From an uncultured Anaerolineaceae bacterium (GTDB lineage: Bacteria > Chloroflexota > Anaerolineae > Anaerolineales > Anaerolineaceae), in assembly GCA_927443345.1 (NCBI GenBank), contig CAKMKJ010000032.1:1-56036 (forward strand): a stretch of 56,036 nt of DNA. Direction: 5' to 3'. The notes below the pieces were generated by a model that ran no database searches, had not been told where the DNA came from, and saw only the letters and a program-made list of their open reading frames with translations. Shown piece after piece: positions 9,380 to 25,397 of this stretch. The stretch's first letter is position 1. Each line of letters begins with the position of its first letter. A program made the translations under genes and the position numbers.

Positions 9380-10315
9380 ATGGCAGAAAATAATCAAGAC
9401 GAAATGATGGTGATCGCAGCCTGGCTGTACTACGGGGAGCATATGACACATGAGGAAATTGCTGGTGAGTTACATATGTCGCGGGTCAGCATCACTCGTC
9501 TTCTACAACGTGCTCGAATGGAAGGCGTAGTTCAATTTACAATCACACGTCCGCTTCCTGAGCAATTCAAACTTGAAAGCCGTTTGAAAGAAAAATTCAA
9601 CATCCGTTCGGTTACGATTACTAAATCCATGGCAGATCCAAACGACACCATTAAGGAAGTGTGCCGTTACGCAGCCGCGACACTAAAAAAGCATTTATTT
9701 CGTGGTTGTCGGTTGGGTGTTGCATTCAGTTCCACACTTGGCAATATGGTGGATTTTTTGGACGGCAATTCAACACCAGTTGGTATCACTATCCAGGAAT
9801 TAGCTGGCACTTACCTCTCACCCAATGCACCTTATGGAATAAGTTGGCGTATTGCCGAAAAGTTGAATGCAAAAATTATCTCTTTGCCGATCCCGGTTGT
9901 TGTTCAGAGCGAAGAAGTTCGCGATGCCATGCTTCAAGAACCCAGCATCAAAGCAGCAATGTTAGGAATCCCGCAAGTAGATTTAGCAATTGTCGGTCTT
10001 GGCCGTATTGGTCGTGATTCTACACTTGTTAAAACCGGACATTTTACACCAGAGATGATGTCGTCACTCAAAGGACAAGGTGCAGTCGGAGACATCCTCC
10101 TGCATTTCTATGATCGAGACGGCAGCTATGTTTCCAACCCAATACAAAATCGCATGGTCATCTTAAAGTGGGAAGAACTTCAAAGGATTCCGAATGTGAT
10201 TGGGGTTGCTTCTGGAGTAAATAAAGTTGAAGCGATCAAAGGTGCCTTACGAAGCGGCACTGTTCATCATCTTGTCACGGATATGGAAACCGCCATGGCG
10301 GTCATGATGGATTAG
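9380..10315 (+). CDS. SorC/DeoR-type sugar-responsive regulator
   Basis: 311 residues: N-terminal helix-turn-helix (MTHEEIAGELHMSRVSITRL, about 23-42) and a large C-terminal sugar-phosphate-binding domain of the SorC family (GVAFSSTLGNMVDFL; VDLAIVGLGRIG; AVGDILLHFYDRDG). Members bind phosphorylated sugars and release inverted-repeat operators. It follows the aldolase by 78 bases in the same direction. Inverted repeats with a GTTC-N6-GAAC core lie before the aldolase, before the transporter-mtnKA operon and before the shell operon, so this is the best candidate for the regulator of the whole locus. The ligand is probably a sugar phosphate made by the MtnK/MtnA homologues. Confidence 0.88.
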   Translation: MAENNQDEMMVIAAWLYYGEHMTHEEIAGELHMSRVSITRLLQRARMEGVVQFTITRPLPEQFKLESRLKEKFNIRSVTITKSMADPNDTIKEVCRYAAATLKKHLFRGCRLGVAFSSTLGNMVDFLDGNSTPVGITIQELAGTYLSPNAPYGISWRIAEKLNAKIISLPIPVVVQSEEVRDAMLQEPSIKAAMLGIPQVDLAIVGLGRIGRDSTLVKTGHFTPEMMSSLKGQGAVGDILLHFYDRDGSYVSNPIQNRMVILKWEELQRIPNVIGVASGVNKVEAIKGALRSGTVHHLVTDMETAMAVMMD

Positions 10316-10426: not shown

Positions 10427-11512
10427 TTAATAACCAGCATCTTTCTTCTTTTTAAATATTTCTTTTAAACTCAGGCTAAAAGGAGGTCTTGCAATGCCAA
10501 ATTCAGTAATGATCGCAGTAATAAATCGAGCATCAGTCACATCAAATACCGGATTGAAGATTTTTACACCTGTTTCTGGCGCCATAGGCTTTTCATACCA
10601 TTTTTTTGACACTTCATCAGGATTTCGCTCTTCAATGTGAATATCCCAGCCAGTTGGTGTATTCATATCAATAGTAGATGTTGGAGCACATATATAGAAT
10701 GGAATACCATAGTTGTGAGCCAAGATTGCCACTCCGGATGTACCGATCTTATTGGCAGTATCACCATTGGCAGCAACACGATCACAACCGACAAAGACCG
10801 ACTGGATCCAGCCATTACGCATTACAGTAGAGGCCATATTATCGCAAATTAAGGTAACATCCACACCAGCTTGCGCCAGTTCAAAGGTGGTCAAACGAGC
10901 TCCTTGCAATAAGGGGCGGGTTTCATCAGCAAACACTTTGAAGTTGTAACCACGTTCCTGCCCAAGATACATGGCTGAGGTGGCTGTGCCATACTTACCG
11001 GTTGCCAATGTGCCCGCGTTGCAATGGGTCAAAATACCAGTATTGGGCTGCAAAAGAGATAGGGCATATTCACCTATAGCTTTATTGGTACGAATATCTT
11101 CTGCTTTTATTTCTTCAGATTGAACCCGCAAGGCTTCTTTTATTTCTGGAATGGATTTACCTCGATTTGCAAGTAAACATGCCTCCATTTTGTCCAGAGC
11201 CCAAAACAAATTTACGGCTGTTGGTCGAGAAGATGCTAAATATTTTTTTACCTCAGAAAACTCTTTATAAAAAGAATCAGCATCTGTTGCCTTCGAATTT
11301 TTTACACCGAGATATGCTCCATAACCGGCAGCAATTCCGATAGCTGGCGCTCCACGTACACGTAATTCATAAATTGCTTCCCAAATATCAGCTTGTTCTG
11401 TCAGATGAAGATATAAAACTTCGTTTGGCAGCAAGGTCTGATCTAGAATCACCAGAGCACTGTTTTTATCATCCAGAGAGACTGTCTCCAGGTCAAAAGC
11501 TTTGTTTTCCAT
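10427..11512 (-). CDS. mtnA: S-methyl-5-thioribose-1-phosphate isomerase-like
   Basis: 361-residue aldose-1-phosphate to ketose-1-phosphate isomerase of the MtnA/eIF2B-like family. Diagnostic residues are present: Cys164 in [11 protein letters not shown] and Asp244 in [10 protein letters not shown], plus the [10 protein letters not shown] motif (about 51-60) and NKIGT. In methionine salvage it makes 5-methylthioribulose-1-phosphate; in the DHAP shunt the same enzyme also takes 5-deoxyribose-1-phosphate. It is the last gene of the minus operon (transporter, mtnK, mtnA), 27 bases after mtnK, and no later methionine-salvage genes (mtnB, mtnC/mtnW/mtnX, mtnD) occur in the window, which favours the aldolase route. 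Ribose-1,5-bisphosphate isomerase is less likely because the MtnA-type Cys/Asp pair and the kinase partner fit MtnA. Confidence 0.9.
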
Positions 11513-11539: not shown

Positions 11540-12763
11540 CTATAGCGTAGCAGCGACATCTTTGAGAGTTTTTAAGAATTCGGCTCCAGATTTGTAGGTT
11601 TCGCGAGCCATGATAAATCTTTTTGCAGACAGCAGACAAATACGTTCTGCACGCAGCCGTGCTTTTTCATCTGCAATAGTGGTAATGTCTTTAACTTGGG
11701 CCAAACCCACGATCCTGCGTGATAATTCCATACCAGTAACCGCGGCAGTGTCACTCAATACGGTTTGCAGATACCATTCCTGGAATCCTGGTACTTTAGC
11801 TAATACTTCGGTAACGTTCTTTTGCCAGGCGATATTAAATTTTTTGATGAAAAGATCGACCACTTCTACAATGGTCTTCTCCACCCATCCGATATAATCC
11901 GCTTTTTCGGTTGTGTCACTCATTGTTGCATCTGCGTTTGCCCAGGCAAAAATCATATTTGCGACCACGTTACCGATATCATAGCCCATGGGGCCATAGA
12001 ATGCGAACTCAGGGTCAATTACCTTGGTCGAGTCAGTTTTGATAAAAATCGACCCGGTATGAAGGTCGCCATGAATTAAGGATTGTGCGTGGGTTAAGAA
12101 TTCAAATTTTAACTTGGCGACTTCCAGAAGCAATTGCTCATCGTTGTATATTTCTTGCTCAACCCATTCTTGATTGGGCGGAAAAACGATATTACGGTTA
12201 TTGTAATTATTGAATGGTTCAGTATAAACAAGGTCTTCTGAAATTTCACACAATTCTGGATTGATGAAACTCTTGACCATTGCTTTCTTTTTCTTGTGAT
12301 CCAAAACTACATCGGTAGTTAACAAAAGCGTATTCACCATGAATGTAGAAATATCATCTGCAAAGCGCGGGAATTTTTGATGCTGGATAAGTGCAGCACG
12401 CATGATAACGTGATCTGAAAGATCTTCCATGCAGCAAGTACTCATCACATCATCATACTTGTAAACGAGGGGTACCAAGCCAGGCGCTAAATCATGCTCT
12501 AATTGTAAAATTTCAGCTTCAATGCGGGTGCGGTCAGTAGACAACACAAAAGCATCAGAAATTCTTGCAGTATGACCTGCTTGTTTGATAATGACTGATT
12601 TACCGCTTTTTGTATCCCACACACGGAAAATATAATTAATATTTCCGTCTCCGATTTCTTTGCCCTCTAATATTGAATCTGGAGCGAAAAAATCCAATTT
12701 TTCGCGGGCATATTCAACGACATCTGATGGTTTCATTAAGAAATAGGAATCAAATCTGGACAT
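11540..12763 (-). CDS. mtnK: 5-methylthioribose kinase-like
   Basis: 407-residue ATP-dependent sugar kinase with the aminoglycoside-phosphotransferase fold, phosphorylating C1 of 5-methylthioribose (or 5-deoxyribose). Visible motifs are the N-lobe glycine region ([13 protein letters not shown], about 36-48), catalytic loop HGDLHTGSI with Asp233, and the DPEF motif (Asp250-Glu252) that replaces DFG in this family. Length matches MtnK. ATG follows CGGAGGAAA. Sits between the ABC permease and mtnA in one operon, implying that the free sugar enters from outside and is trapped as the 1-phosphate. Confidence 0.9.
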
Positions 12764-12790: not shown

Positions 12791-13792
12791 TCACTTTTTG
12801 CGGAAGTAGGTCAACGCTAGTGCCAGCACCAGAACTGACCCTTTAATAATATTCAATGAATAATAGGGAACAGACATCATGACCAATCCATTTTCAAGAA
12901 TACCGACTAGCACCGCTCCAGCAAATGTGCCGATTGCATTGGGTCGACCAGCCCCGGCAACTGAAAGACCGATAAAAGCTGCCGCAACGGATGGCATCAA
13001 ATATCCTGCACCAGCATTAATTTGGGCAGAACCGATCCGTGAGGCCAAGATAATGCCGCCAACCGCCGCAAGTAAAGCTGAAAGTAAGTAAGCCAAAGCT
13101 CGATAACGATCAACTGGAATACCAGAAAGTCGGGCAGCTTCCATGTTCCCACCCACAACATATAGATACCGACCATATTTGGTGTAGGTTAAGAAGACAT
13201 GAGCCAACGCAACAACAACAAGCATGATAATGATAATCGTGGGAGCTGTTCCAATTGTTTTAAAGATATCAGGTATGATTCCAAAAGTGGGAGTACCGTC
13301 CAGGCGCGGCATCCCTTGACTAATAGAACCACCTCCAGCATAAGTCATCGCCACACCTTCAAAAATGAAAAGTGAAGCCAAAGTCACCAGCATGTCTGGA
13401 ATTTTCACCTTTACTATTAAAAACGCATTGAACGCTCCGACTACCATTGCAACGACAAGCGTAACCAAAATAGCAGGCACAGTTGGCATGCTATGCCAAA
13501 CAAACATAGAAATAACCAATGTATCAGCAAATGTAGCCATGGATCCAATCGAGAGATCAAACCCATTGATTGTCAATGAAATCGTGATACCAATCGCAAT
13601 CACAGTGACGATCGAAATACTACGAAGAATCGTCGTTATGTTGGATGGTGTCATAAAAATATCTGGCATCGATATTGAAAAAAACAACAACAAACCAACG
13701 ATTGCCAAAATAGTTCCCCACTTGGTGACAAAATTCATCAAAACCGTTTGAATGCGGACTTTATCTTGTTGAACATTTGAGGATAGAGCCAT
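12791..13792 (-). CDS. Ribose-type ABC permease (RbsC family)
   Basis: 333-residue membrane subunit of a CUT2 importer for monosaccharides or ribosides, about 8-10 hydrophobic helices. Family motifs: TINGFDLSIGSMATFAD, GGNMEAARLSGIPVDRYR and the late GAVLVGILENGLVMM. Start ATG overlaps the end of the ATPase gene region (3-base gap) with GGAGG upstream. Works with the ATPase at 13796 and the binding protein at 15577. Substrate inferred from the kinase and isomerase downstream: methylthioribose, deoxyribose or a related pentose. Confidence 0.9.
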   Translation of the reverse strand: MALSSNVQQDKVRIQTVLMNFVTKWGTILAIVGLLLFFSISMPDIFMTPSNITTILRSISIVTVIAIGITISLTINGFDLSIGSMATFADTLVISMFVWHSMPTVPAILVTLVVAMVVGAFNAFLIVKVKIPDMLVTLASLFIFEGVAMTYAGGGSISQGMPRLDGTPTFGIIPDIFKTIGTAPTIIIIMLVVVALAHVFLTYTKYGRYLYVVGGNMEAARLSGIPVDRYRALAYLLSALLAAVGGIILASRIGSAQINAGAGYLMPSVAAAFIGLSVAGAGRPNAIGTFAGAVLVGILENGLVMMSVPYYSLNIIKGSVLVLALALTYFRKK

Positions 13793-13795: not shown

Positions 13796-15316
13796 TTACT
13801 TACCTCCAGTTGAATAGAAGAGTAGTTTTTCTTCGTCAGTATTTGCTGTTTCAAGTTCTTTGGCAATCTGACCATCATACATCACATAAGCACGATCGGT
13901 GATCCCCAAAATTTCGGTAAACTCACAGGTAGCATAAATCACACCTTTGCCAGCAACTGCCAGTCGACCGATTAACTCAAAAATATCGTGTTTTGCCCCG
14001 ACATCTACACCTTTGGTAGGCTCATCAAAAATGAATACATCTGCATCAGCATTTAACCATTTGCCAACAGCCACTTTTTGTTGATTGCCGCCTGAAAGAT
14101 AAGCCACTTTCTGATTTTCATTAGGGGTTTTGATGGACAATTCAGTGATCATATTTCGTGCATTTAATTTCTCTAAAAGAGATTTAATAAAACCCAATGG
14201 AGTAGAAAATTTTGCAAGCGTGGCAGCAGAAAGGTTTGAGAAAACAGGTTCCTCCACAAGAACGCCTTCCTTTCGCCGCTCTTCAGGCACAAGGGCTAAT
14301 CCCTGTGAGACTGCCGAAAATGGAGAGTTAATTGTTCTTTTGATACCTTTTATTTTAATATCACCAGACTTGGTTTTAAGGCTTCCAAATATTGTTTTGC
14401 ACAACTCAGTTTTTCCTGCGCCAACTAGCCCGGTCACACCGACTATCTCACCAGCACGCACATATAAACTAACATCTTTAACAGATCCCTCTTTTTCTGT
14501 AAGATGAGCGACTTCAAAAAGAGTATCTCCAATATTGGCTTTACGTTTAGGAAACACCTCTGAGAGCTTCTGTCCAAGCATAAACTCCACAACTTTTGCC
14601 ACACTCAAATCCGCTACCGATTGACGAGTTACAACCTGGCCATCTTTCATAATGGTGATATCTTTGCAAATCTCAAATATCTCAGGCAAACGATGAGAAA
14701 TAAAGATGATGCCAACATTATGATTATCAGCTAAATCTTTTAAAAGCCGAAAAAGTTCAACCGTCTCTGTATTTGAAAGTGGCGCTGTCGGCTCATCCAA
14801 GATCAAAAAGCGACAATCTTCAGCAATCGCCCGAGCGATTAGAACCATTTGTTTTTGAGCTAGCTTAAGATTCTGAACAATCTCATTTGTATCAATTTGA
14901 ATATTCAATCGTTTAAGTATCTGGCGTGCTGCTTGATGGATTTTTGGCCAATGGACAAATACCTGCCGCCCCATTTTGTTGACCAGAACATTTAACATAA
15001 TATTTTCTGCCACAGATAAATAAGGCACCAGCGCAGTATCGACTTCCTGGTAAACAATTTCGATACCTAGATTTTTGGCGTCACGTGGAGAGCGAATTGC
15101 CACTTCATTGCCATTTAGGAAAATCGAACCTGTATAATGATTGTATGCGCCTGCCATGATTTTCATCAGGGTGGATTTACCTGCGCCATTTGCACCAACT
15201 AACGCATGGATATTGCCACTTTCAATGTTAATATCTACATTCGAAAGAGCTTTAACACCTGGAAATTCAATTGAGATACCTTTCATCTCTAACTGATTCA
15301 ACAATTGCGTTTCGAT
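13796..15316 (-). CDS. Ribose-type ABC ATPase (RbsA family), probable ATC start
   Basis: Tandem ATP-binding subunit of the importer. First domain: Walker A GANGAGKST and LILDEPTAPLSNTE Walker B. Second domain: degenerate Walker A (GLVGAGKTE), signature LSGGNQQK and FIFDEPTKGVDVG. The first canonical start is a TTG at 15304, but it lies 18 bases from the SD sequence AAGGAGG (15329-15323). An in-frame ATC at 15316 sits 6 bases from it and adds four residues, giving the N-terminus (M)ETQLLNQLEMKGI, a usual length for RbsA-type proteins. I therefore prefer ATC; TTG at 15304 is the alternative. About 505 residues. Confidence 0.9.
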   Translation of the reverse strand: METQLLNQLEMKGISIEFPGVKALSNVDINIESGNIHALVGANGAGKSTLMKIMAGAYNHYTGSIFLNGNEVAIRSPRDAKNLGIEIVYQEVDTALVPYLSVAENIMLNVLVNKMGRQVFVHWPKIHQAARQILKRLNIQIDTNEIVQNLKLAQKQMVLIARAIAEDCRFLILDEPTAPLSNTETVELFRLLKDLADNHNVGIIFISHRLPEIFEICKDITIMKDGQVVTRQSVADLSVAKVVEFMLGQKLSEVFPKRKANIGDTLFEVAHLTEKEGSVKDVSLYVRAGEIVGVTGLVGAGKTELCKTIFGSLKTKSGDIKIKGIKRTINSPFSAVSQGLALVPEERRKEGVLVEEPVFSNLSAATLAKFSTPLGFIKSLLEKLNARNMITELSIKTPNENQKVAYLSGGNQQKVAVGKWLNADADVFIFDEPTKGVDVGAKHDIFELIGRLAVAGKGVIYATCEFTEILGITDRAYVMYDGQIAKELETANTDEEKLLFYSTGGK

Positions 15317-15576: not shown

Positions 15577-16710
15577 CTATTTTACGTAATATGCGCGAAG
15601 AACATCCATCCAAGTTTCATTGAATGCATCCGATTTACCCCAACCTTCAATAACATCCTTGAGGTTTTCCATATTGGTGTCGGGTTTCAAATCAGATTGT
15701 TTAATCAATTTTGCTTCGAGGTCATAATTGGCAGGAAGTTCTTCTCCAGCAAATTTCTTGGCTAACAAACGCATGTCAACAATACCAATCAACCGTGGAT
15801 CAACAGCGGCTGTTGAATACCAGACAGAGTTCTCTTCACGCATCAAATTCATGTCTTGATTTGAAATATCGATAGAGATTAGGGCAATGTCTGTACGTCC
15901 AGCGTCAACCAATGCTTTATAAGCGCCTTTAGCCATTTCATCCCATGAACCCCAGATTGCATCCACGGTTCCTTCGGGATATTTAGCGAGGATTGCACCA
16001 ACTTTTGCAGCGATATCACCCTGAACATCCTGGAAATTCGATGGTCCGATAGTTTCAAGGGTAACCAACTTACCTTCTTCTAAAAATTCCTGGTAAATGG
16101 TTTCGCGGCGATCCAAGGGAGGAACGCCAGGGCCCCACCACAATTTGATAACACGAGCAGGGTTGCCATCTTTGCTTAAGGCAGCGATTTCAGTGAGAGA
16201 GAGTTCTGCCAGAGCAAAATCATCCTGGAAAGTTGTGGTAATTTCTGGCAAGTTAACGCCGTCTTTGTCGATGACTGTGTCGAAGGTTACGACTTTAATA
16301 CCTGCATCAACTGCCGGCTTGAGCATATCGTAGGAATAATCAGCTTTTCCATGAGAAATGATTAAGCCATCATAGCCTTTTTGAATGGCTTGGGCAACCA
16401 GATCTTGAAATTTGACATCATCATTATCTGCAATGAAAGTATCAACAACAAAACCGAAAGATTCGCCTTCTGAGCGGGCGCCATCAAGGAATTGTTTGGT
16501 ATGGTCATCAGAGGGGAGGTTACGAATGACCGCGATCTTTAGACCGGGGGTTACACCAGCCGGAACGCCTTCGAGGGGGTTGGCTGTTTCTTCAGCAACA
16601 GCTTGGGTTGCATCTTCAACAACTGCCTGGGTCGGTTCTGTTGAGGCGGCCGGAGCGCAGGCGCTCAGCAAGAACACAGTGATAAGCACTAAACCTAAAA
16701 TCTTTCTCAT
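15577..16710 (-). CDS. Ribose-type ABC sugar-binding lipoprotein
   Basis: 377-residue periplasmic-binding-protein type I lipoprotein, CUT2 class. Signal peptide with lipobox LLSAC (Cys18) and a Ala/Thr/Glu linker; then the two-lobe domain (LKIAVIRNLPSDDHTKQFL; GYDGLIISHGKADYSYDML; DAIWGSWDEMAKGAYKALVD). I start at the ATG at 16710, which has AAGGAG 7 bases upstream; the GTG two codons earlier overlaps the SD. First gene of the minus operon that continues with ATPase, permease, mtnK and mtnA, and divergent from the shell operon. Confidence 0.92.
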   Translation of the reverse strand: MRKILGLVLITVFLLSACAPAASTEPTQAVVEDATQAVAEETANPLEGVPAGVTPGLKIAVIRNLPSDDHTKQFLDGARSEGESFGFVVDTFIADNDDVKFQDLVAQAIQKGYDGLIISHGKADYSYDMLKPAVDAGIKVVTFDTVIDKDGVNLPEITTTFQDDFALAELSLTEIAALSKDGNPARVIKLWWGPGVPPLDRRETIYQEFLEEGKLVTLETIGPSNFQDVQGDIAAKVGAILAKYPEGTVDAIWGSWDEMAKGAYKALVDAGRTDIALISIDISNQDMNLMREENSVWYSTAAVDPRLIGIVDMRLLAKKFAGEELPANYDLEAKLIKQSDLKPDTNMENLKDVIEGWGKSDAFNETWMDVLRAYYVK

Positions 16711-16772
16711 CTTCACTCTCCTTATAGTATTTATTTGTAGATATGGTTGGATGGCATCTCTACCATGCGATC

Positions 16773-17115: not shown

Positions 17116-17409
17116 ATGCTAATTGCAAGAGTAATCGGCAACACTGTTTCCACTGTTAAAGATGAGCGCCTTGTCGGCCGCAAATTGATGATTGTGCGCC
17201 AAACAGATGAATATGGTGCTCCACAAGGAAAACCTTTTGTTGCCGTAGACACTGTTGATGCGGGTGTTGGCGATTTAGTACTGACCTGTTCTGGCTCATC
17301 AGCTCGTCAGACTAACCAGACTAAAGACACTCCGGTTGATGCTGTAATCATGTCGGTGATCGACTCTCTCACTGTTGACGGAAAAACTGTCTTCAGCAAA
17401 AATGCATAA
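17116..17409 (+). CDS. BMC-P vertex protein 1 (EutN/CcmL/PduN family)
   Basis: 97-residue pentameric vertex protein that caps the corners of a microcompartment shell. Typical opening MLIARVIGNTVSTVKD, the central KLMIVRQ strand, the AVDTVDAGVGDLVL turn and the final DAVIMSVIDSL strand. I start at ATG 17116 with GGAG 6 bases upstream; an in-frame ATG at 17074 would add 14 residues with no ribosome site. First gene of the shell operon; 25 bases before the aldehyde dehydrogenase. One of three BMC-P paralogues in the operon. Confidence 0.93.
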   Translation: MLIARVIGNTVSTVKDERLVGRKLMIVRQTDEYGAPQGKPFVAVDTVDAGVGDLVLTCSGSSARQTNQTKDTPVDAVIMSVIDSLTVDGKTVFSKNA

Positions 17410-17434: not shown

Positions 17435-18898
17435 ATGTTTAAAGATCTCGCCTCCATTCAAGAAGCTCGCGAAAAAGTTTCACTGGCTTATGAAGCCTGG
17501 AAAATATGGAGCCATGCCACGCAAGCAGAGGTAGACCGTGTCTGTGAAGCAATGGCAGAGGCAGGAGTTCAATCTGCTGAACGACTCGGAAAAATGGCTC
17601 AAGAAGAAACTGGTTTTGGTATCGCTGAACACAAAAAATTGAAAAATATCGTTGGCTCAAAACTGGTATGGGAGAGTATCCGCAGTCAAAAGACGGTGGG
17701 AGTAATTAACCATGATGCTCAGCGTCGGGTGTATGAAATTGCCTGGCCCATGGGTGTCATCGCAGGTCTTGTACCTTCTACCAACCCAACTTCAACAACG
17801 TTTTTCAAATCTCTCATAGCCCTAAAAGCACGAAATGCAGTCATTTTTTCTCCACACCCAAGTGCAGCGCGCTGCACAAATGAAGCCGCTTATGTGATGG
17901 CTCAAGCCGCCGAAAGAGCTGGCGCTCCTCACGGATTAATCGATTGTATGCAACAGGTATCTTTGCAAGGCACTCAAGAACTCATGACCCACAAGCACAC
18001 GGCTCTAATATTGGCGACTGGCGGCACCCCCATGGTACGCGCTGCCCACTCAACCGGTAAACCGGCTTATGGTGTGGGACCTGGTAATGTACCTGTATAC
18101 GTTGACCGAAGCGCCGATTTAGAAAAAGCAGCTCGATATATTGTTGCTTCAAAATCATTCGATTGTTCAACCATTTGTGCTTCGGAACAATCCGTTATTG
18201 CAGACCGCCCCATCGCAGCCCAACTTGCGGAATTAATGCATGCACAAGGTGCATATTTCTGCTCAGAGAACGAAACCAATGCTCTGCGAAAGTCAGTATT
18301 TCAACCCGATGGCAGTATGAATGTTGCATTGGTGGGCAAACCCGCCCGATATGTGGCTACTTATGCTGGTTTCAGCATCCCCGATTCTGCGCGTGTTTTG
18401 GTAACCCCCTTAATCAAAATCGGACGAGATGAACCTCTTTCTCACGAAAAGCTGACTACGGTTTTAGGTTGGTACGAAGTTGAAGGCTGGGAACGCGGTT
18501 GTGAGGTTTCTATGGCATTGATTGAAACAGGGGGTCGAGGCCACACTCAGATAATCTACGCGCAAGACGAACGTGTTATTCTAGCGTTTGGACTTGAAAA
18601 ACCTGTTTTCAGAATTCTGGTCAACACAATGGGCACTTTAGGTGCAACCGGCTTGACCACTGGCTTAATGCCATCTTTCACGCTCGGTTCTGGTGGTGTT
18701 GGCGGTGCAATCACTGGCGACAACATAACAGCCTCCCATTTAATTAATATAAAACGGTTGGCGTATGAACTAAAAGAACCACCATCTGACGTCCTGGCCC
18801 CTGCAAATCTGCCTGATGTTCCTCGCACGGAAGAGCTTGAAAAATCGATTCTGGAAGTTACACGTGAAATTCTTGAAGGTAAGAATAACCATTTTTAA
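17435..18898 (+). CDS. CoA-acylating aldehyde dehydrogenase, BMC core enzyme (PduP/EutE-like)
   Basis: 487 residues, oxidises an aldehyde to acyl-CoA with NAD+. Nearest in style to PduP/EutE and the N-terminal half of AdhE: GLVPSTNPTSTTFFKSLIALKA segment (about 111-132; split here as GLVPSTNPTS and TTFFKSLIALKA), and catalytic Cys248 in STICASEQ. The last ~18 residues (EELEKSILEVTREILEGK) form a predicted amphipathic helix after a Pro-rich linker (LAPANLPDVPRTE), the hallmark of a C-terminal encapsulation peptide. It is the only aldehyde-processing oxidoreductase in the operon; no PduL-type phosphotransacylase or alcohol dehydrogenase is present. Substrate inferred: the aldehyde released by the class II aldolase. 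Confidence 0.92.
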   Translation: MFKDLASIQEAREKVSLAYEAWKIWSHATQAEVDRVCEAMAEAGVQSAERLGKMAQEETGFGIAEHKKLKNIVGSKLVWESIRSQKTVGVINHDAQRRVYEIAWPMGVIAGLVPSTNPTSTTFFKSLIALKARNAVIFSPHPSAARCTNEAAYVMAQAAERAGAPHGLIDCMQQVSLQGTQELMTHKHTALILATGGTPMVRAAHSTGKPAYGVGPGNVPVYVDRSADLEKAARYIVASKSFDCSTICASEQSVIADRPIAAQLAELMHAQGAYFCSENETNALRKSVFQPDGSMNVALVGKPARYVATYAGFSIPDSARVLVTPLIKIGRDEPLSHEKLTTVLGWYEVEGWERGCEVSMALIETGGRGHTQIIYAQDERVILAFGLEKPVFRILVNTMGTLGATGLTTGLMPSFTLGSGGVGGAITGDNITASHLINIKRLAYELKEPPSDVLAPANLPDVPRTEELEKSILEVTREILEGKNNHF

Positions 18899-18967: not shown

Positions 18968-19282
18968 ATGGATACATCACAAATCGCTTTAGGAATGGTT
19001 GAAACACGAGGATTAGTAGGTGCAATTGAAGCTGCCGACGCAATGGTAAAAGCTGCCAACGTGGAATTGATCGGTTCTGAATATATTGGCGGTGGTTTTG
19101 TTACAGTAATGGTCCGTGGTGATGTCGGCGCTGTTAAAGCCGCAACTGACGCAGGCGCTGCTGCCGCAAAACGTGTCGGTGAATTAGCTTCGGTTCATGT
19201 CATCCCCCGACCGCATGTTGATATCGATATGATTCTCCCTAAACGAAGTAAAGGCAGTTTTGCCGGACGTAGCGAAAAGTAG
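18968..19282 (+). CDS. BMC-H hexameric shell protein (PduA/EutM-like)
   Basis: 104 residues, single BMC domain forming the hexagonal shell tiles. Opening [20 protein letters not shown] and the [19 protein letters not shown] strand-helix are textbook. The pore loop reads GGG (41-43) where PduA has GSG. The C-terminal tail after residue 82 ([21 protein letters not shown]; basic, last 20 or so residues) is longer than the minimal domain. Purine-rich GGAAGGAAG precedes the ATG. It is the sole BMC-H gene here, so it probably makes most of the shell. Confidence 0.96.
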
Positions 19283-19287: not shown

Positions 19288-19914
19288 ATGGCTGAGACCC
19301 TTTCTTTAAGATGCTATTGCCTCATTGACCGAATGCAGGCTCAATATGCTGCCTTCATTGGTTCAGTCACACAAGGTGACCTGCCAACTGAAGGCATGTC
19401 TGCCCTCTATGTTGAAATGGCTCCTGGCAATGAGGTTTTTCGCGTGGTTGATATTGCTCTAAAAGCAACTGAAGCTCACCCAGGTGCTCAAATTGTAGAA
19501 CGCGAATATGGCATGTTTGAAGTCCATTCAAAAAACCAGTCGGATGTTTTGGAAGCTGGAGATGTAGTACTCAATCGCCTGGGATTAACCGTCAATGATC
19601 GCATTCGTCCGCAAGTGGTTTCAACCCAAGTAATTACTCGGGTAGATCCGTACCAGGCTCAACTCATCAACAGGTTTCGCCGAGGGAGTATGCTCGTGCC
19701 TGGACAAACCATGCTCGTCTTGGAGTGTTCACCGGCTGCATATATTAATTATGCAGTAAATGAAGCCGAGAAAAAAGCCAGTATCAACTTAATTCATGTT
19801 TCTTCTGTCGGAAGATTCGGTCGCATGTGGCTTGCGGGCAGTGAAGCTGAAATTGTTACTGCTCGAGACGCCGCCATTCGCGCCCTTGAAAGCCTTGAAG
19901 GAATTGCGGCTTAA
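19288..19914 (+). CDS. BMC-T trimeric shell protein
   Basis: 208 residues with two tandem BMC-like domains (about 35-105 and 130-205), forming a pseudohexameric trimer. Domain 1 is recognised by MSALYVEMAPGNEVFRVVD and DIALKATEAHPGAQIVE; domain 2 by MLVLECSPAAYINYAVNEA and GSEAEIVTARDAAIRALESL. The first ~30 residues and the inter-domain stretch (RIRPQVVSTQVITRVDPYQA) are not typical PduT. No Cys pattern for an iron-sulfur cluster is visible, so it probably serves as a metabolite pore and not an electron conduit. Starts 5 bases after BMC-H. Confidence 0.88.
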   Translation: MAETLSLRCYCLIDRMQAQYAAFIGSVTQGDLPTEGMSALYVEMAPGNEVFRVVDIALKATEAHPGAQIVEREYGMFEVHSKNQSDVLEAGDVVLNRLGLTVNDRIRPQVVSTQVITRVDPYQAQLINRFRRGSMLVPGQTMLVLECSPAAYINYAVNEAEKKASINLIHVSSVGRFGRMWLAGSEAEIVTARDAAIRALESLEGIAA

Positions 19915-19929: not shown

Positions 19930-19945
19930 AAGGAGGTGACTCATC
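19930..19945 (+). promoter_or_regulatory. SD sequence followed by an ATC start
   Basis: AAGGAGGTGA (19930-19939) is almost fully complementary to the 16S rRNA 3' end and lies 6 bases (from AGGAGG) before ATC at 19943. The frame is closed just upstream by TGA (19937-19939). No ATG, GTG or TTG is available in frame until ATG 20000, 57 bases later and inside the conserved module. The ATC aligns exactly with the initiator Met of the aldolase. Confidence 0.7.
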
Positions 19946-20464
19946 GCAAAAACATTTTACACTGAGCATGATATTGAAGATCTGGTAAAACGTGGAACCA
20001 TGTCTCTAACATTGAGCGATAACGTTGTAGTTACCGATCTTGCATACGAAAAAGCACATCAATTGGGGATGAGTTTGGTTAGTCCTAAAACCATTCAACC
20101 ACCAGCCGCGCCAATACGTCCTTATATCTCTAAAGAACAAAAGAATGAGTCGATTGAACTAAAAATAGCGCAAGCTCCATCTTTCATTAATTTTGAAAAT
20201 AATATTTCTTTTAATAAACGAGAGCTTGTTTCAAACACAAGTGACCCTATAAAAGCTATGGGCCTCACCGCAATGGCTGTAACCCAGAATGATACTGAGA
20301 ACACAACAGCCGGGTATCCAAAGCCCACAAATGCCACCAGGATTGATTCAACTGATTTGCGTCACCGTGTTCATGAAGAAGTTCAGTTGCGATTTGGAAA
20401 AGTAGATCCAGCTCTTCTCGAAAAGACAATACAACGTGTTTTCACCAGACTTGGAATTGAGTAA
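19943..20464 (+). CDS. Small BMC-associated protein, EutQ-N-like module
   Basis: 173 residues if it starts at ATC 19943; from ATG 20000 it would be 154 and would lose the first strand of the module. Residues 1-62 match the N-terminus of the class II aldolase without a gap (32 of 62 identical: AK--YT--DIE, G--SL-LS, TD-AYEKA--LG, QPP-APIRPY). The middle (63-125) is low-complexity and Ser/Thr/Asn-rich. The last ~38 residues (LRHRVHEEVQLRF; PALLEKTIQRVFTRLG) form a predicted helix pair. From memory, both ends resemble the N-terminal half of EutQ, without its cupin domain. It lies between BMC-T and two BMC-P genes. Likely an adaptor or scaffold between cargo and shell; not an enzyme by any motif I can see. 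Confidence 0.75.
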   Translation: MAKTFYTEHDIEDLVKRGTMSLTLSDNVVVTDLAYEKAHQLGMSLVSPKTIQPPAAPIRPYISKEQKNESIELKIAQAPSFINFENNISFNKRELVSNTSDPIKAMGLTAMAVTQNDTENTTAGYPKPTNATRIDSTDLRHRVHEEVQLRFGKVDPALLEKTIQRVFTRLGIE

Positions 20465-20467
20465 TAA

Positions 20468-20788
20468 ATGCTTCTCGGTAAAGTTACAGGAAACGCCATC
20501 TGCAGCATGAAATACCCCGGCATGGAAGGGTTCAAATTACTTCTTGTTCAACCACTCAACAAGAGTCTTGAACCCATTGGCACTCTTCAGGTCGCTGTTG
20601 ATACGACCCAAGCCGGAGAAGGTGACATTTGTGTAATGGTTCGCAGCCGAGAAGCCTGTTTGGCCCTCAATGAACCAATTGAAATACCAATTGATCTGGC
20701 TTTAGTTTCCATCGTCGACCAACACACTCTAAAGCCTGATACTGACTTTGACTTTGTTATGAAGACTGGCTGGAATTCATTCAGTTGA
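20468..20788 (+). CDS. BMC-P vertex protein 2
   Basis: 106 residues, EutN/CcmL fold: MLLGKVTGNAICSMK opening, KLLLVQPLNK strand, AVDTTQAGEGDICVMV turn and LALVSIVDQ final strand, then a tail of about 20 residues longer than in the other two paralogues (TLKPDTDFDFVMKTGWNSFS). Begins 3 bases after the small EutQ-N-like gene, so translation is probably coupled. Its divergence from the neighbouring copies suggests different partners or vertex positions. Confidence 0.92.
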   Translation: MLLGKVTGNAICSMKYPGMEGFKLLLVQPLNKSLEPIGTLQVAVDTTQAGEGDICVMVRSREACLALNEPIEIPIDLALVSIVDQHTLKPDTDFDFVMKTGWNSFS

Positions 20789-20798
20789 TCGGAAGTAA

Positions 20799-21080
20799 AT
20801 GATAATCGCAAAAGTAATCGGTACTATTGTTACAACCATAGGGCACGTCCACTTCAAAAACCGTCGAATCCTGATTGTTCAACCTCTCGGAGACGACGAT
20901 GGAACCTATGATGAAGATTTTATAACGCTGGACAATACACAGGCTGGTATTGGTGATACAGTTCTTGTCCTTCGTGAAGGGTCTGGCGCAAGACAAGTGT
21001 TAAATAATCCACAAAGCTGTATCGCCTCGGTAATTGTCGGAATTGTAGACTCAGTTTATATTGCACCAAAATCTGCATGA
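20799..21080 (+). CDS. BMC-P vertex protein 3
   Basis: 93 residues, EutN/CcmL fold: MIIAKVIGTIVTTIGH opening, RRILIVQPLGDDDG strand and acidic loop, LDNTQAGIGDTVLVLREGSG turn region and ASVIVGIVDSV final strand. More similar in plan to BMC-P 1 than to BMC-P 2. Starts 10 bases after BMC-P 2 with GGAAG upstream. Three vertex genes for one BMC-H and one BMC-T is more than the minimum of one. Confidence 0.93.
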   Translation: MIIAKVIGTIVTTIGHVHFKNRRILIVQPLGDDDGTYDEDFITLDNTQAGIGDTVLVLREGSGARQVLNNPQSCIASVIVGIVDSVYIAPKSA

Positions 21081-21156
21081 TGTAATTGAAAGTATATACC
21101 CAGGCATTGGTTAAACATTTTTTGAAATAATTAAAAGCAAATTTGGAGTAATTCAA

Positions 21157-22107
21157 ATGCCCAACTCATCCCAAACAGAAGTGCCTTCCAACTGGAAGGA
21201 AAATGCCTCACGAATTGCGAATCGCATCCGGCTTCGTGTTCTTGAACATGTGCTTACAAACAATGGCGGATATATGAGTCAGGCCTGTTCATCAGCAGAG
21301 CTCTTTGCTGCTCTCTATACTCGCATTGTAAATTTAGCCCCTTCTGAAGCCCCTATGATTCCAGCACCATTCAAAGGTGTACCCGCAAGCAATAATTCTC
21401 TATATACTACGGGTGGAATTTACAATGGTCCGCAGGCTGCCCATTTAGATCGATTTATATTCTCGCCGGCCCATTATGCGCTTGTGCTTTACGCTACCCT
21501 TATTGAGGTTGGGCGAATGTCTCCTGAAGGGCTCAAACAGTTCAATCAAGATGGAAGTTCAGTAGAAATGATCGGTGCAGAACATTCACCTGGCTGTGAA
21601 GTAACTAATGGATCACTGGGTCAATCAATTTCTCAGGCAGTAGGCATTGCATTAGGCCGCCGACTAAAAGCTGAAACTGGGCGTGTTGTCGTGATGATGT
21701 CGGATGGAGAATTTAACGAAGGTCAAACCTGGGAGGCAATTGCTTCCATGAGTCATTACAAGTTAGACAGCATGTTAGTCTATGTCGATGTCAACGGGCA
21801 GTGTGTAGATGGTAAATTGAATGAAACCATGAATGTTGAACCTCTACAATCTCGCCTGGAGGCATTTGGAGCGCGCGTTTTTAGTGTAAATGCGCATGAT
21901 CTGGAGGCACTTGCTGCACCAGCGGAATTAGCTCCTGATGGACGCCCAATCTTCGTTTTGAGCTACTCCAACCCGACACAGGGTTTACCCCTTTTACAAA
22001 ATCGCGCCCCTAAATTACATTATCTGCGTTTCAAAGACGAAGCTGAACGCGAATCCTATCTTACTGTTTATCAATCCATGCTGGCAAATATGCCGGCTGC
22101 TGAATAA
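21157..22107 (+). CDS. Transketolase N-terminal subunit
   Basis: 316 residues, the thiamine-diphosphate pyrophosphate-binding half of a two-subunit transketolase. The metal/ThDP motif is MSDGEFNEGQTWEA followed by VDVNGQ about 30 residues later; family contacts H-S/P-G (GAEHSPGCEVTNGSLGQ) are present. Single-chain transketolases are about 620-670 residues; here the chain ends before the pyrimidine domain, which is the next gene (11-base gap). GGAG stands 8 bases before ATG. Placed directly after the shell genes and before the RuBisCO-like gene, so its donor or acceptor is probably an intermediate of the same pathway. Split transketolases are also known in D-apulose-phosphate breakdown. Confidence 0.92.
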   Translation: MPNSSQTEVPSNWKENASRIANRIRLRVLEHVLTNNGGYMSQACSSAELFAALYTRIVNLAPSEAPMIPAPFKGVPASNNSLYTTGGIYNGPQAAHLDRFIFSPAHYALVLYATLIEVGRMSPEGLKQFNQDGSSVEMIGAEHSPGCEVTNGSLGQSISQAVGIALGRRLKAETGRVVVMMSDGEFNEGQTWEAIASMSHYKLDSMLVYVDVNGQCVDGKLNETMNVEPLQSRLEAFGARVFSVNAHDLEALAAPAELAPDGRPIFVLSYSNPTQGLPLLQNRAPKLHYLRFKDEAERESYLTVYQSMLANMPAAE

Positions 22108-22118
22108 GGCAGAATAAA

Positions 22119-23126
22119 ATGGAAATATTATCCAAAGTTCATGCTACGAATTTGGTCAAATGGGCCAAAGATAAACCCCAAGTGTTGGTGCTCTCTGCAG
22201 ATCTTACCAGTTCTACTGAAGTGGATGACTTCCAAAAAGCTTATCCGGATCGCTTTTTTTCTTTCGGATTAGCCGAAGCCAACATGATGAGTGCGGCAGG
22301 CGGATTGGCACGTGAAGGATTTCTCCCTTTTATTCACACATTCGCGGTTTTCATTTATCGCCGAGCTTTCGACCAGTTGATCGATTCGGTTGCTTATCCA
22401 AACCTGCCCGTACGCATGGTTGGATTTTTACCCGGTATCGTTACACCAGGTGGAATTACTCACCAAGCGATAGAAGATGTAGCCCTGCTGCGCTCCGTGC
22501 CAAACATGACTATTGTTGAAGTGGCGGATGCAACTGAAATTGAAAGTATCCTGACAGGCACAGAGAATATTCGAGGCCCTATTTACTACAGGATGCTCCG
22601 CGGTGAAGTTTCGCGCTTGTTCGCAAAAGACGAACCCTTCAAACTCAACACTGCTCGCATACTCAGCACGGGCAATGATATAACCCTGCTATCGTCCGGG
22701 ATTTGTACTGAAGAAGCCATGCGAGCCACAACCATACTAAAACAAAGAGGTGTTGCAATTCAACACTTACATATTTCTACCCATAAACCGTTTGACGATC
22801 CTTCGGTTATCCAAGCCTGCTCAGAAGCACGGTTGGGAGTAATCACAATGGAAAACCATACCATCATCGGTGGACTTGGATCAGCAACAGCCGAATTAAT
22901 CGCCACGAATGGGTTGGGTAAATCGCTGCAACGCATTGGTTTGAAAGATACATTTGCTCACGGAGCAAGCAAACCATACCTCATGCGCGAATACGAAATG
23001 GATGCATTAGCGCTGGTTCAAACAGTTGAAAAAATGGTCGGCCACGACCTGGACATCAACGAAATTGACTTGCAATCTGTGCGACTTCAAGCTGTGCATA
23101 GCGCAGCTAAAGCGGAGGCGCTGTAA
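22119..23126 (+). CDS. Transketolase C-terminal subunit
   Basis: 335 residues, pyrimidine-binding and C-terminal domains of the same two-subunit transketolase. The catalytic Glu region is FFSFGLAEANMMSAAGGLAREG (about residues 46-66; contact Glu in GLAEAN), with HTFAVFIYRRAFDQLI after it and a C-terminal Rossmann-like domain (ITLLSSGICTEEAM; GVITMENHTIIGGLGS). The split families include DXS-like and transketolase-like proteins; the order N then C and the lengths fit transketolase. Overlaps the next gene by one base (TAATG), which implies tight co-expression with the RuBisCO-like protein. Confidence 0.92.
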   Translation: MEILSKVHATNLVKWAKDKPQVLVLSADLTSSTEVDDFQKAYPDRFFSFGLAEANMMSAAGGLAREGFLPFIHTFAVFIYRRAFDQLIDSVAYPNLPVRMVGFLPGIVTPGGITHQAIEDVALLRSVPNMTIVEVADATEIESILTGTENIRGPIYYRMLRGEVSRLFAKDEPFKLNTARILSTGNDITLLSSGICTEEAMRATTILKQRGVAIQHLHISTHKPFDDPSVIQACSEARLGVITMENHTIIGGLGSATAELIATNGLGKSLQRIGLKDTFAHGASKPYLMREYEMDALALVQTVEKMVGHDLDINEIDLQSVRLQAVHSAAKAEAL

Positions 23127-24265
23127 TGCATCTAGTTACCCCTCCATTAAGCGGCGAACGGTTTCAGGTAATCTACCGAATAAACGGTAGTTATGATGAG
23201 GCTATGGCTAAAGCCCAAGACGCTTGTATCGAACAAACCGTCGAGTTCCCTGCCGACCTCTTACCAGCGGGTGATATACCGAACCATATCATTGGACGGA
23301 TCGAAGGGGTTAACAAAAGTTTTAATGATTTCAACGATATAACCATTTCTTATCCGGTGGAAGATGCCGGCGGTGATCTTGTGCAACTGTTGAATGTCAT
23401 ATTTGGAAACACAAGTATTAAACCGGGTATTCGAGTTGAAAAATTGATTTTGCCAACTGCTATTCTGAGCAAATTTCAAGGACCGAGATTTGGAAGAAAC
23501 GGTTTGAGAAGTTTATTAAAAGCACCCGCGCGACCGATGCTCTGTTCAGCCATCAAGCCCATGGGGTTAACAAGCGAGCAGTTTGCTGACCAGGCATTTC
23601 AATTCGCATCTGGTGGAATTGACATCATCAAAGATGACCATGGATTGGCTGACCAACCCTTCTCGCCTTTCAGAGAGCGTGTGGCACGATGCGCAGAGGC
23701 CGTGCAACGCGCAAATGCCAAGAGCGGGTCTCACAGTATCTATATGCCAAGTTTGGGGTCGCGTGCAGATCAAATAATCGAAAAAGCCTATTATGCCAAG
23801 AGCGTTGGTGCCGGTGGTTTTCTTGTGCCGCCAGGATTAGTGGGTTTTGACATCATGAGAGTGTTGGCTGATGATAACTCACTTGCATTACCAATTATGA
23901 TGCATCCTTCGATGATTGGCAGTTTTGTCACTTGCCCAACCACTGGTTTTTCTCATTACACCCTTTTCGGGCAGCTTACTCGCCTGGCAGGAGCAGACGC
24001 CACGATATATCCCAACTGGGGAGGACGTTTTGCATTTAGTCGTGAGGAGTGCATTTCTATAGCTGCTGGCAGCCAGGAAGACCTGGGACATATCAAACCG
24101 ATCTTCCCTACACCTGGTGGTGGTATGACAATTGATCGGATCCCGGAAATGCTGGATGTGTACGGTAAAGACCTAATTTTTCTCATGGGCGGAGGGTTGC
24201 ACCGCATCAAACCCACCCTGGTTGAATCAAGCGCCTATTTCAGAAATCTTGTGGAGAATATGTAA
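23126..24265 (+). CDS. RuBisCO-like protein (form IV), not a carboxylase
   Basis: 379 residues with the RuBisCO large-subunit fold: small N-terminal domain (to about 130) and TIM barrel. Mapping by eye onto RuBisCO: Lys144 (=K175) and carbamylation Lys169 (=K201) with Asp171 (=D203) are kept; K177 is Met146, E204 is His172 (IKDDHG), the loop-6 region reads NWGGRFAFS instead of GTVVGK, and the S379 site is PTPGGG. The Mg2+/enolisation core thus survives while carboxylase residues are lost. Form IV members act as MTRu-1-P 1,3-isomerase (R. rubrum), enolase (YkrW/MtnW) or 3-oxo-isoapionate-4-phosphate decarboxylase (OiaX). Next to mtnK/mtnA homologues the isomerase role is favoured; to an extent the split transketolase also recalls apiose loci. 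Confidence 0.92.
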   Translation: MHLVTPPLSGERFQVIYRINGSYDEAMAKAQDACIEQTVEFPADLLPAGDIPNHIIGRIEGVNKSFNDFNDITISYPVEDAGGDLVQLLNVIFGNTSIKPGIRVEKLILPTAILSKFQGPRFGRNGLRSLLKAPARPMLCSAIKPMGLTSEQFADQAFQFASGGIDIIKDDHGLADQPFSPFRERVARCAEAVQRANAKSGSHSIYMPSLGSRADQIIEKAYYAKSVGAGGFLVPPGLVGFDIMRVLADDNSLALPIMMHPSMIGSFVTCPTTGFSHYTLFGQLTRLAGADATIYPNWGGRFAFSREECISIAAGSQEDLGHIKPIFPTPGGGMTIDRIPEMLDVYGKDLIFLMGGGLHRIKPTLVESSAYFRNLVENM

Positions 24266-24266
24266 A

Positions 24267-25397
24267 ATGAAATATCAGGTCATTGGCCCAAACGACCCAG
24301 CCCTGGAAGTATTAGCCACTCAACTCAAGGCTCATCCTGAATGGGAAACAGCATTAACTATTCTGCCTTGGGCAGAATATCAATCCAAAGTAACTGAAAC
24401 ACTCCAAGCCTCAACCAGTACTTACCAGGCATTATGCATACCCGGTCACATCTGGTTGCCAGGGTTTGCCGATGCGGGACAATTGGCTGCCTTCGAAGAA
24501 TTACTTCCAAATTTACCTGTAGATCGAATTGATGCTTATAAATCTGCCGAGATTATGCCTTCGGTGGCAGATGAGTGTCGATATAACAACTCACAATACA
24601 TTCTGCCTTTATTTACCGACGGGCATATTCTATTTTTCCGTAAAGATGTATACCCCTTAATTGAAAATAGTAGTGTCCCGATTATTGATCCATGTGGTTT
24701 GCCTGAAATTCTTGAAAACGCTCATTTAAAGGAAGGGATGTATCCCTTTGCGCTCAAAGCCCATTCAAGCGAAATCCTTACCGACTGGCTTCCATATCTT
24801 TGGGCTTTCGGTGGTGAAATTCTGGATGCAAAAAATCAACCTGCGTTTAACAGTGAAGCTGCAATCAGCGCATTAGAGTTTTACATTAGCCTCAAACGAT
24901 TCTGCCCGCCAGAAACTCATAATTTCGGCAATCAAGAAATCGCCGATGCACTCAAACAAGGGCGCGTTGCCATGGCAGCCAGTTGGGGCGGCCAGGCAGC
25001 GATGATTTTGGATGCTGCAAATCCTTTCAATACCTTCTTTGGCTCTGCGATCTTTACTTCTCCGTGGAATGCCACTTGGGGTGTCAGCATCCCTGCCAAC
25101 CAGCCGCAAACAGAACAGATCAATATTTTGAATGTACTATATGCAGCCGCTTCTCCCGCGCAGGATTTACTCGTTACCCAAATTGCAGGCAGCCCGGTTC
25201 GGTCCACAAGCTACTCACAAGAAGAATTATCAAAATATTCCTGGTTGCCCGCCCAATATGAAATGCTGCAACGGTGTAAGACGCTTCCAGCAAATCCCGT
25301 TTTGACTAGATACTTGGGTGCGCTTTATCAAGCTGTCTACCTGGCATTTACAGGTGAAAAAACACCTCAAAATGCACTCAATCAAGCTGCAAAATAA
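24267..25397 (+). CDS. Solute-binding-protein fold without signal peptide
   Basis: 376 residues resembling family 1 ABC sugar-binding proteins (for example PLFTDGHILFFRKDVYPLI; ALKQGRVAMAASWGGQAAMI; NPVLTRYLGALYQAVYLAF), yet the first strand of the fold begins at residue 2 and there is no signal peptide, lipobox or transmembrane helix. The preceding gene ends one base before the ATG, so no leader is missing upstream. It should therefore stay in the cytoplasm. Last gene of the shell operon, just before the terminator. Possible roles: sugar(-phosphate) sensor, chaperone or buffer for the compartment substrate. I know of no characterised BMC component of this kind; the assignment of the fold is firm, the function is not. 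Confidence 0.8.
   Translation: MKYQVIGPNDPALEVLATQLKAHPEWETALTILPWAEYQSKVTETLQASTSTYQALCIPGHIWLPGFADAGQLAAFEELLPNLPVDRIDAYKSAEIMPSVADECRYNNSQYILPLFTDGHILFFRKDVYPLIENSSVPIIDPCGLPEILENAHLKEGMYPFALKAHSSEILTDWLPYLWAFGGEILDAKNQPAFNSEAAISALEFYISLKRFCPPETHNFGNQEIADALKQGRVAMAASWGGQAAMILDAANPFNTFFGSAIFTSPWNATWGVSIPANQPQTEQINILNVLYAAASPAQDLLVTQIAGSPVRSTSYSQEELSKYSWLPAQYEMLQRCKTLPANPVLTRYLGALYQAVYLAFTGEKTPQNALNQAAK

Follow-up and report, generated by a model that had tools for sequence, protein, structure and literature searches.

The window analysed here, a stretch of 56,036 nucleotides from an uncultured Anaerolineaceae bacterium (contig CAKMKJ010000032.1), contains a gene for a RuBisCO-like protein (RLP) that is located in an operon-like cluster encoding a bacterial microcompartment (BMC) of the metabolosome type. 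The cluster looks built for the breakdown of 5-deoxyribose-type waste sugars. The RLP probably acts as an isomerase of the DeepYkr type whose product would be cleaved by the split transketolase encoded directly upstream, with a class II aldolase and the acylating aldehyde dehydrogenase EutE providing a second route. According to this scheme, in which each catalytic step is predicted from sequence, uptake by an ATP-binding cassette (ABC) transporter and the activities of MtnK and MtnA would provide a 5-substituted ribulose-1-phosphate. The RLP would then shift the carbonyl group along the chain to yield a 1-substituted xylulose-5-phosphate, namely 1-deoxyxylulose-5-phosphate from 5-deoxyribose or 1-methylthioxylulose-5-phosphate from methylthioribose, and the transketolase with thiamine diphosphate would convert the xylulose-5-phosphate product into glyceraldehyde-3-phosphate and a two-carbon unit. 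Alternatively, the aldolase would split the same ribulose-1-phosphate into dihydroxyacetone phosphate and an aldehyde, which EutE would convert to an acyl-CoA within the metabolosome. The predicted sugar front end and the predicted RLP reaction are well supported, and 5-deoxyribose is favoured over methylthioribose as the substrate.

The RLP gene is an intact open reading frame (ORF) whose ATG overlaps the stop codon of the gene for the transketolase C-terminal subunit by 1 bp. The deduced protein matches PF00016 (E=2.7e-29) and represents the sole PF00016 match in its own genome, which comprises 94 contigs with 3.67 Mb and is 98.8% complete. An AlphaFold model calculated with 43 relatives as input reached a mean pLDDT of 93.6, and its top structural matches are RLPs. 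The structures 2zvi and 3qfw are tied at Z 46.2, with a root-mean-square deviation of 2.0 over 363 residues and 1.5 over 347 residues, respectively, so that the YkrW type and 3qfw cannot be separated by structure alone. A sequence search against solved structures placed 3qfw, an RLP of Rhodopseudomonas palustris, first with 245 bits, the next best match scoring 163 bits. Among viral contigs, 17 pattern matches to the RLP were obtained, none of which was confirmed as a relative.

The active-site residues were read from an alignment with the RuBisCO 6hun, and their equivalents are given in what we take to be the RuBisCO numbering. The protein retains K144 (K175), K169 (K201) and D171 (D203) as well as E36 (E60), N95 (N123) and H260 (H294), and it carries M146 at the position of K177 and H172 at that of E204. 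An earlier reading of the window, made from the sequence only and hereafter called the sequence-only reading, had described a form IV RLP with K144, K169 and D171 retained and with these substitutions, all of which were borne out. The Lys of loop 6 is absent as that reading claimed, but it had missed the Arg residue (R301) that occupies the K334 column throughout the clade. All 90 clade rows (80 named loci, nine others and the window) carry both His204 and Arg334, as does 3qfw, and the two residues occur together in none of the 20 other rows. Arg334 was detected in five of these 20 rows, each time with Glu204. In the YkrW structures (2oek, 2zvi and 3fk4), OiaX and form III, Glu204 is retained and position 334 is not Arg. 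This signature was derived in the present alignment and not taken from print. Accordingly, the active site matches that of 3qfw at K175, K201, D203, His204 and Arg334. Identity as a RuBisCO carboxylase, which requires K177, E204 and K334, was rejected, since these positions are occupied by Met, His and Arg. In RuBisCO chemistry the Lys pair is needed for carboxylation, and its loss would fit enolisation without carboxylation by the window RLP. By analogy with the R. palustris enzyme, the protein would be expected to bind metal with His replacing Glu.

In a tree calculated from 99 RLP and RuBisCO sequences, the window RLP and 3qfw fell into a clade of 79 rows on a long branch with an SH-aLRT value of 100, whereas the YkrW structures and OiaX are located outside of this clade. 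The tree was calculated by a quick method with SH-aLRT values as the only support, no single branch separated the outgroup from the other rows, and 3qfw was flagged as a long row. The RLP sequence of Rhodospirillum rubrum and the Photo group are absent from the tree, 12 of the 80 loci were omitted as near-duplicates or truncated sequences (L080, L091, L093, L101, L106, L110, L120, L121, L122, L126, L127 and L133), and 29 of the 99 rows carry no partner label. R. palustris possesses two RLPs, and RLP1 is described in PMC5893883 as a DeepYkr member and a 5-methylthioribulose-1-phosphate 1,3-isomerase (kcat 1.3 per s) that yields 1-methylthioxylulose-5-phosphate and 1-methylthioribulose-5-phosphate. 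We infer that 3qfw is RLP1, because 2qyg, which among the matches listed is the one remaining RLP structure from R. palustris, is titled rlp2. Clade membership and residue signature support the assignment of the window RLP as a putative member of the DeepYkr-type 1,3-isomerase family. The sequence-only reading had suggested placement in a form IV tree, in which the protein grouped with 3qfw and not with YkrW, OiaX or another group of different known reaction. Its analogy with R. rubrum, that is the conversion of a 5-substituted ribulose-1-phosphate to a 1-substituted xylulose-5-phosphate, is supported as a prediction by the tree, the active-site signature and the gene partners.

The gene partners were deduced from 80 named relatives, the best 80 of 579 (best segments 50-87% identical), by tblastn counts in all 80 loci; an earlier ORF-based count of neighbours covered 76 of them. 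Within 5 kb of the RLP gene, a transketolase subunit was detected at 59 loci and a cupin at seven, with no locus containing both (Fisher p=3.7e-5 for the exclusion, without kinship correction). When only those 50 loci are considered in which the RLP gene is flanked by 2.5 kb or more on each side, the numbers are 37 with transketolase, six with cupin, none with both and seven with neither. An eighth cupin, located 5.2 kb from the RLP gene at L139, one of the loci with neither partner within 5 kb, is included among the cupin labels of the tree. On the tree, the cupin loci are dispersed among the transketolase loci, with five changes of the label, at least three of which fall on starred branches, although they are also more clustered than expected by chance (mean of 7.7 changes after shuffling). 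The cupin of locus L084 matches Rru_A2000 (3jzv; E=2.5e-41), which is named as the sulfurylase of R. rubrum in PMC4958253. Genes for an O-acetylhomoserine sulfhydrylase scoring over the cut-off accompany two of the cupin loci, L084 and L139, and a truncated sulfhydrylase gene was detected in the vicinity of L108. Judged by these matches, the putative R. rubrum shunt gene set surrounds the same RLP clade at L084 and L139. These data are most simply read as a single RLP reaction whose product is processed by either of two enzymes, transketolase or cupin.

The transketolase loci also include the genes of the sugar front end, as MtnK was found within 5 kb of the RLP gene at eight and MtnA at ten of the 80 loci, all of them with transketolase. 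In Clostridium ljungdahlii and C. drakei, a single run RbsB-ABC-ABC-MtnK-MtnA-TKN-TKC-RLP was observed, where TKN and TKC denote the N- and C-terminal transketolase subunits, and the genes for MtnK, MtnA, both subunits and the RLP are likewise clustered in metagenome-assembled genomes of Spirochaeta and Lokiarchaeota and in others. A gene for an MtnP-type phosphorylase is located within 5 kb in three of the 80 loci; the phosphorylase of L082 scores over the cut-off for methylthioinosine phosphorylase and under that for MTAP. A plasmid of Ponticoccus alexandrii (L144, 608-9131) combines a BMP-family solute-binding protein, a purine-nucleoside phosphorylase, an amidohydrolase, MtnA, a molybdenum oxidoreductase, both transketolase subunits and the RLP. 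The window itself contains genes of the molybdenum hydroxylase (xanthine dehydrogenase) type at 31082-34720, several kb beyond the RLP gene, which recall the oxidoreductase next to the RLP on this plasmid and perhaps serve purine disposal. The gene for the SBP_bac_1-like protein, starting one base after the RLP stop codon, has counterparts within 5 kb at 14 of the 80 loci. Two further observations concern the relatives. On a plasmid of Rhizobium sp. RCAM05350 (L143, 7995-9118) the RLP is annotated in two pieces adjoining MtnA, possibly representing a broken gene. In the Chloroflexota locus L070 (5073-9986; related genes in L088 and L098), an LsrF-like thiolase (over the cut-off in L070), a short-chain dehydrogenase/reductase and a RhaD-like aldolase precede TKN-TKC-RLP, which suggests another substrate variant.

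The closest solved structures to the transketolase subunits, 6yak and 6yaj, belong to the split transketolase of Carboxydothermus. Tyr39 is found in at least 95% of 51 N-terminal subunit sequences, at a position occupied by His in 6yak and human transketolase. Likewise, at least 95% of 51 C-terminal subunit sequences carry Gly111 in place of the Asp of 6yaj and a DXS protein; Glu53 is retained. Both positions presumably contact the donor sugar. Another split transketolase encoded in the same genome retains the His. These changes would fit an unusual donor, without proving one. Since the genome revealed neither a dxr match nor a dxs scoring over the cut-off, no candidate other than the transketolase was seen for conversion of the RLP product.

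The sequence-only reading was correct in placing the RLP gene in a BMC operon, but it omitted the neighbouring MtnK and MtnA genes and the class II aldolase gene, which change the interpretation. The aldolase carries an N-terminal module that is common to u154 and to the u154 counterpart u158 of a second BMC locus described below. Its nearest solved structures are 6voq with 92 bits and DrdA (6btd) with 88 bits, the latter being a 5-deoxyribulose-1-phosphate aldolase according to PMC6079011. The window aldolase reaches the cut-off of none of the NCBIfam models listed, that of the MtnB dehydratase included (94 of 137 bits), and the specificity call therefore rests on the MtnK and MtnA context. 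In Alkalispirochaeta alkalica (L071, 8032-20575), the order TKN-TKC-RLP-SorC-SBP-RbsB-ABC-ABC (SBP, solute-binding protein) is followed by a CcmL-like BMC-P gene (52 bits, below the cut-off), a class II aldolase family gene and MtnK before the available DNA ends. As the C-terminus of this aldolase resembles an encapsulation peptide by eye, the locus apparently represents a distinct instance in which the opposite end of the aldolase is tagged. The N-terminal module in the window and the tagged aldolase of L071 make the aldolase the likelier encapsulated enzyme. It is also the likelier source of the aldehyde, and an assignment of the transketolase as the only aldehyde source was displaced by the finding of the aldolase. 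Relatives of the window aldolase were detected in three of the 80 loci (L071, L078 and L089), and none was found in the DNA examined of the MtnK-bearing loci L081, L103, L104, L105, L111, L119, L125 and L130, so that RLP and transketolase may do the job of the aldolase there.

The genomic region around the RLP gene (Table 1) includes a co-directional run from 17116 to 25397 that comprises BMC-P, EutE, BMC-H, BMC-T, u154, two further BMC-P genes, TKN, TKC, RLP and the SBP-like gene, with gaps of at most 85 bp, a spacing from which co-transcription can be inferred. The components characteristic of a metabolosome, BMC-H, BMC-T, BMC-P and an aldehyde dehydrogenase, are all present, with BMC-T and EutE under the NCBIfam cut-offs. 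The aldehyde-type BMC operon of the sequence-only reading is thus recovered, as PF00936 and PF03319 shell genes and the acylating aldehyde dehydrogenase belong to the same run. The wording that the RLP is inside a metabolosome applies to the operon but not to the protein, for which no added encapsulation peptide was detected: 11 N-terminal residues precede the anchor in five of five BMC rows compared with a median of 13 in 63 others, and 21-22 C-terminal residues compare with a median of 22 in 72. The ends of TKN and TKC are equal in length to those of homologues outside BMC loci and likewise show no added encapsulation peptide, and any location of RLP, TKN or TKC in the shell or its lumen would be conjectural. 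The C-terminal helix of EutE resembles an encapsulation peptide by eye. The u154 protein, without a match in Pfam or NCBIfam, is a possible scaffold. No PF06130 match was found in the genome, the PduL type being the only phosphotransacylase searched. Directly past the operon, genes for the E1, E2 and E3 components of a 2-oxoacid dehydrogenase complex are encoded on the opposite strand (25699-30915).

Table 1. Features of the window in the region of the RLP gene, with the matches on which the assignments are based.
Feature	Position	Strand	Basis
Class II aldolase family protein, N-terminal BMC-locus module of ~95 aa	8339..9301	+	PF00596
SorC/DeoR-type regulator	9380..10315	+	PF04198; NF053881 167 bits, below cut-off 420
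MtnA, 5-methylthioribose-1-phosphate isomerase family	10427..11512	-	TIGR00512 403 bits, cut-off 279
MtnK, 5-methylthioribose kinase family	11540..12763	-	TIGR01767 413 bits, cut-off 275
ABC transporter permease	12791..13792	-	PF02653
ABC transporter ATPase	13796..15304	-	PF00005
RbsB-like sugar-binding protein	15577..16716	-	PF13407
BMC-P (EutN/CcmL) shell vertex protein 0	17116..17409	+	PF03319 104.8 bits
Acylating aldehyde dehydrogenase, EutE type	17435..18898	+	TIGR02518 563.9 bits, below cut-off 620.1
BMC-H shell protein	18968..19282	+	PF00936
BMC-T shell protein, CcmP-like	19288..19914	+	NF053796 254 bits, below cut-off 340
u154, N-terminal BMC-locus module and C-terminal helices resembling encapsulation peptides by eye	20000..20464	+	Homology to SPU-locus u158 and aldolase N-terminus
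BMC-P shell protein 1	20468..20788	+	PF03319
BMC-P shell protein 2	20799..21080	+	PF03319
Split transketolase N-terminal (thiamine diphosphate) subunit (TKN)	21157..22107	+	PF00456; nearest solved 6yak
Split transketolase C-terminal subunit (TKC)	22119..23126	+	PF02779 and PF02780; nearest solved 6yaj
RuBisCO-like protein (RLP), DeepYkr clade, 379 aa	23126..24265	+	PF00016, tree, residues, AlphaFold model
SBP_bac_1-like protein, begins without evident signal peptide	24267..25397	+	PF01547

The same genome contains a second BMC locus of the sugar phosphate utilisation (SPU) type (L157, 8308-13709, G000:C46) that encodes RpiB, DeoC, EutE, BMC-H, BMC-T and three BMC-P proteins and shows the same order of the shell, EutE and u154-type genes; the N-termini of its RpiB and DeoC resemble encapsulation peptides by eye. 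The paralogous pairs of the two loci are 61-81% identical, including EutE with 65%, and u154 is 37% identical over 86 aa. The SPU type is defined by DeoC and RpiB and yields acetaldehyde and glyceraldehyde-3-phosphate according to PMC8217296. Using the genome's own SPU copies as queries, no match to DeoC (PF01791) or RpiB (PF02502) was obtained in the window. The paralogous BMC genes and the lack of DeoC and RpiB indicate that the window locus encodes a compartment similar to the SPU type but with different signature enzymes. That the signature chemistry of this compartment is founded on the RuBisCO relative is possible but less likely than not. A close RLP is present in 12 of 147 genomes of the family. 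Eight of the 12 were covered (all but G502, G503, G540 and G548): five are of the BMC type, and three (G422, G425 and G499, the last on a contig of 4.6 kb) showed no shell genes in the DNA read. The order aldolase-SorC, MtnA-MtnK-ABC-ABC-RbsB, BMC genes and TKN-TKC-RLP is kept in all four BMC-type loci that reach that far (the window, L177, L178 and L179); the fifth (L064, also L180) is a contig of 6.7 kb.

Several observations weigh against the proposed scheme. Neither transketolase nor cupin was detected within 5 kb at 14 of the 80 loci, several of which are located on short contigs, and other partners may therefore exist. The branch of 3qfw is long, its identity to the window RLP is 37%, and its equation with RLP1 is indirect. 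Moreover, the transketolase differs from canonical subunits in conserved residues, which makes its reaction less than certain. The BMC loci also encode an aldolase that would do the same net job and would make RLP and transketolase redundant in these loci. The simplest idea for the presence of both is a division of deoxy and methylthio sugars between the aldolase and the RLP-transketolase pair.

This division leads to the main competitor of the 5-deoxyribose scheme, in which the same isomerase forms 1-methylthioxylulose-5-phosphate, the transketolase acts like a phosphoketolase, with methanethiol leaving the thiamine enamine so that an acetyl unit remains, and 5-deoxyribose is handled by the aldolase. 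It gives the two branches separate jobs in one locus, MtnK belongs to the methylthioribose kinase family, and a gene of the Cys/Met-metabolism pyridoxal phosphate (PLP) family lies within 9 kb at three of 56 transketolase loci (L082, L095 and L111). The products of these three genes score below the listed NCBIfam cut-offs, so that their assignment as O-acetylhomoserine sulfhydrylases was not borne out; the sulfhydrylases over the cut-off are instead located at cupin loci. In addition, the window contains neither such a gene nor a cupin, and its EutE shares 65% identity with the EutE of the deoxyribose-type SPU locus in the same genome, which fits acetaldehyde. The methylthioribose variant is thus a serious though less probable possibility. 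Less likely again, but still to be considered, is that the RLP catalyses an unrecognised reaction with a different ketose phosphate and that the transketolase serves synthesis or exchange instead of cleavage. The distinct conserved residues of the transketolase subfamily and the redundancy of cleavage caused by the aldolase would agree with it, whereas the active-site residues in common with the R. palustris structure and the context of MtnK, MtnA and nucleoside salvage argue against it.

The other alternatives are much weaker. The methylthioadenosine-isoprenoid shunt of R. rubrum, which delivers 1-deoxyxylulose-5-phosphate for isoprenoids, involves the same RLP clade, and a cupin accompanies the RLP in seven of 80 relatives, but no cupin is present in the window, dxr has no match in the 98.8% complete genome (a match in 9 of 14 control genomes), and dxs is not found over the cut-off (over it in 10 of 14). 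The shunt is therefore very improbable in this organism. A YkrW/MtnW-type 2,3-diketo-5-methylthiopentyl-1-phosphate enolase is equally improbable: the two best NCBIfam models for the RLP are indeed enolases, but their scores of 215 and 170 bits fall below the cut-offs of 409 and 514 (TIGR03332, 169.7 of 513.6 bits), the protein lies outside the YkrW clade, and the YkrW structures differ at both signature positions. The option of an OiaX-type decarboxylase of an apionate derivative, raised by the sequence-only reading and compatible with the common RLP fold, has next to no probability, since OiaX belongs to another clade, NF042437 scores 82.7 bits against a cut-off of 700, OiaX retains Glu204 and Lys334, and the OiaX neighbours, a four-carbon sugar kinase and RpiB, are unlike those of the window. 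A sulfo-transketolase (sulfo-TK) reading (cf. PMC12890257) was set aside on gene content.

The DeepYkr-type scheme can be compared with four known systems. The window RLP resembles R. palustris RLP1 and R. rubrum Rru_A1998 in clade and, via 3qfw, in the His204/Arg334 signature, with MtnA in the pathway and the cupin neighbour found in some close relatives; it differs by the split transketolase partner, the BMC operon and a genome without a dxr match or a dxs over the cut-off. The SPU metabolosome provides a paralogous set of shell, EutE and u154 genes in the same order, whereas the window contains RLP and transketolase, plus aldolase, MtnA and MtnK, in place of DeoC and RpiB. With the drd cluster for 5-deoxyribose salvage (DrdK, DrdI and DrdA; PMC6079011) it shares the clustering of an MtnK-type kinase, an MtnA-type isomerase, a class II aldolase and a transporter, but the window aldolase carries the BMC-locus module, and shell, EutE, RLP and transketolase are additional. 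In the sulfo-TK pathway (SqwGH; PMC12890257), a transketolase acts on a modified ketose to release a C2 aldehyde, as would be the case here; the cluster has no match to a sulfoquinovose enzyme family, and RLP, MtnA and MtnK point to a ribulose-1-phosphate substrate. The isomerase family is known, and its partners and compartment appear to form a new combination. In the open-licence literature, judged mostly from the openings of abstracts, no paper on a joint role of the split transketolase and a DeepYkr RLP was found.

The scheme assigns a proposed function, open to experimental test, to a widespread set of three genes, those for the two subunits of the split transketolase and a DeepYkr RLP, that occurs in Clostridia, Chloroflexota, Spirochaetes and others, with versions of the locus in Clostridium ljungdahlii and Alkalispirochaeta alkalica. 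The trio may constitute a disposal route for 5'-deoxynucleoside waste alongside the known aldolase route, and the locus would add to the metabolosomes a type in which the SPU compartment is kept and its signature enzymes are exchanged.

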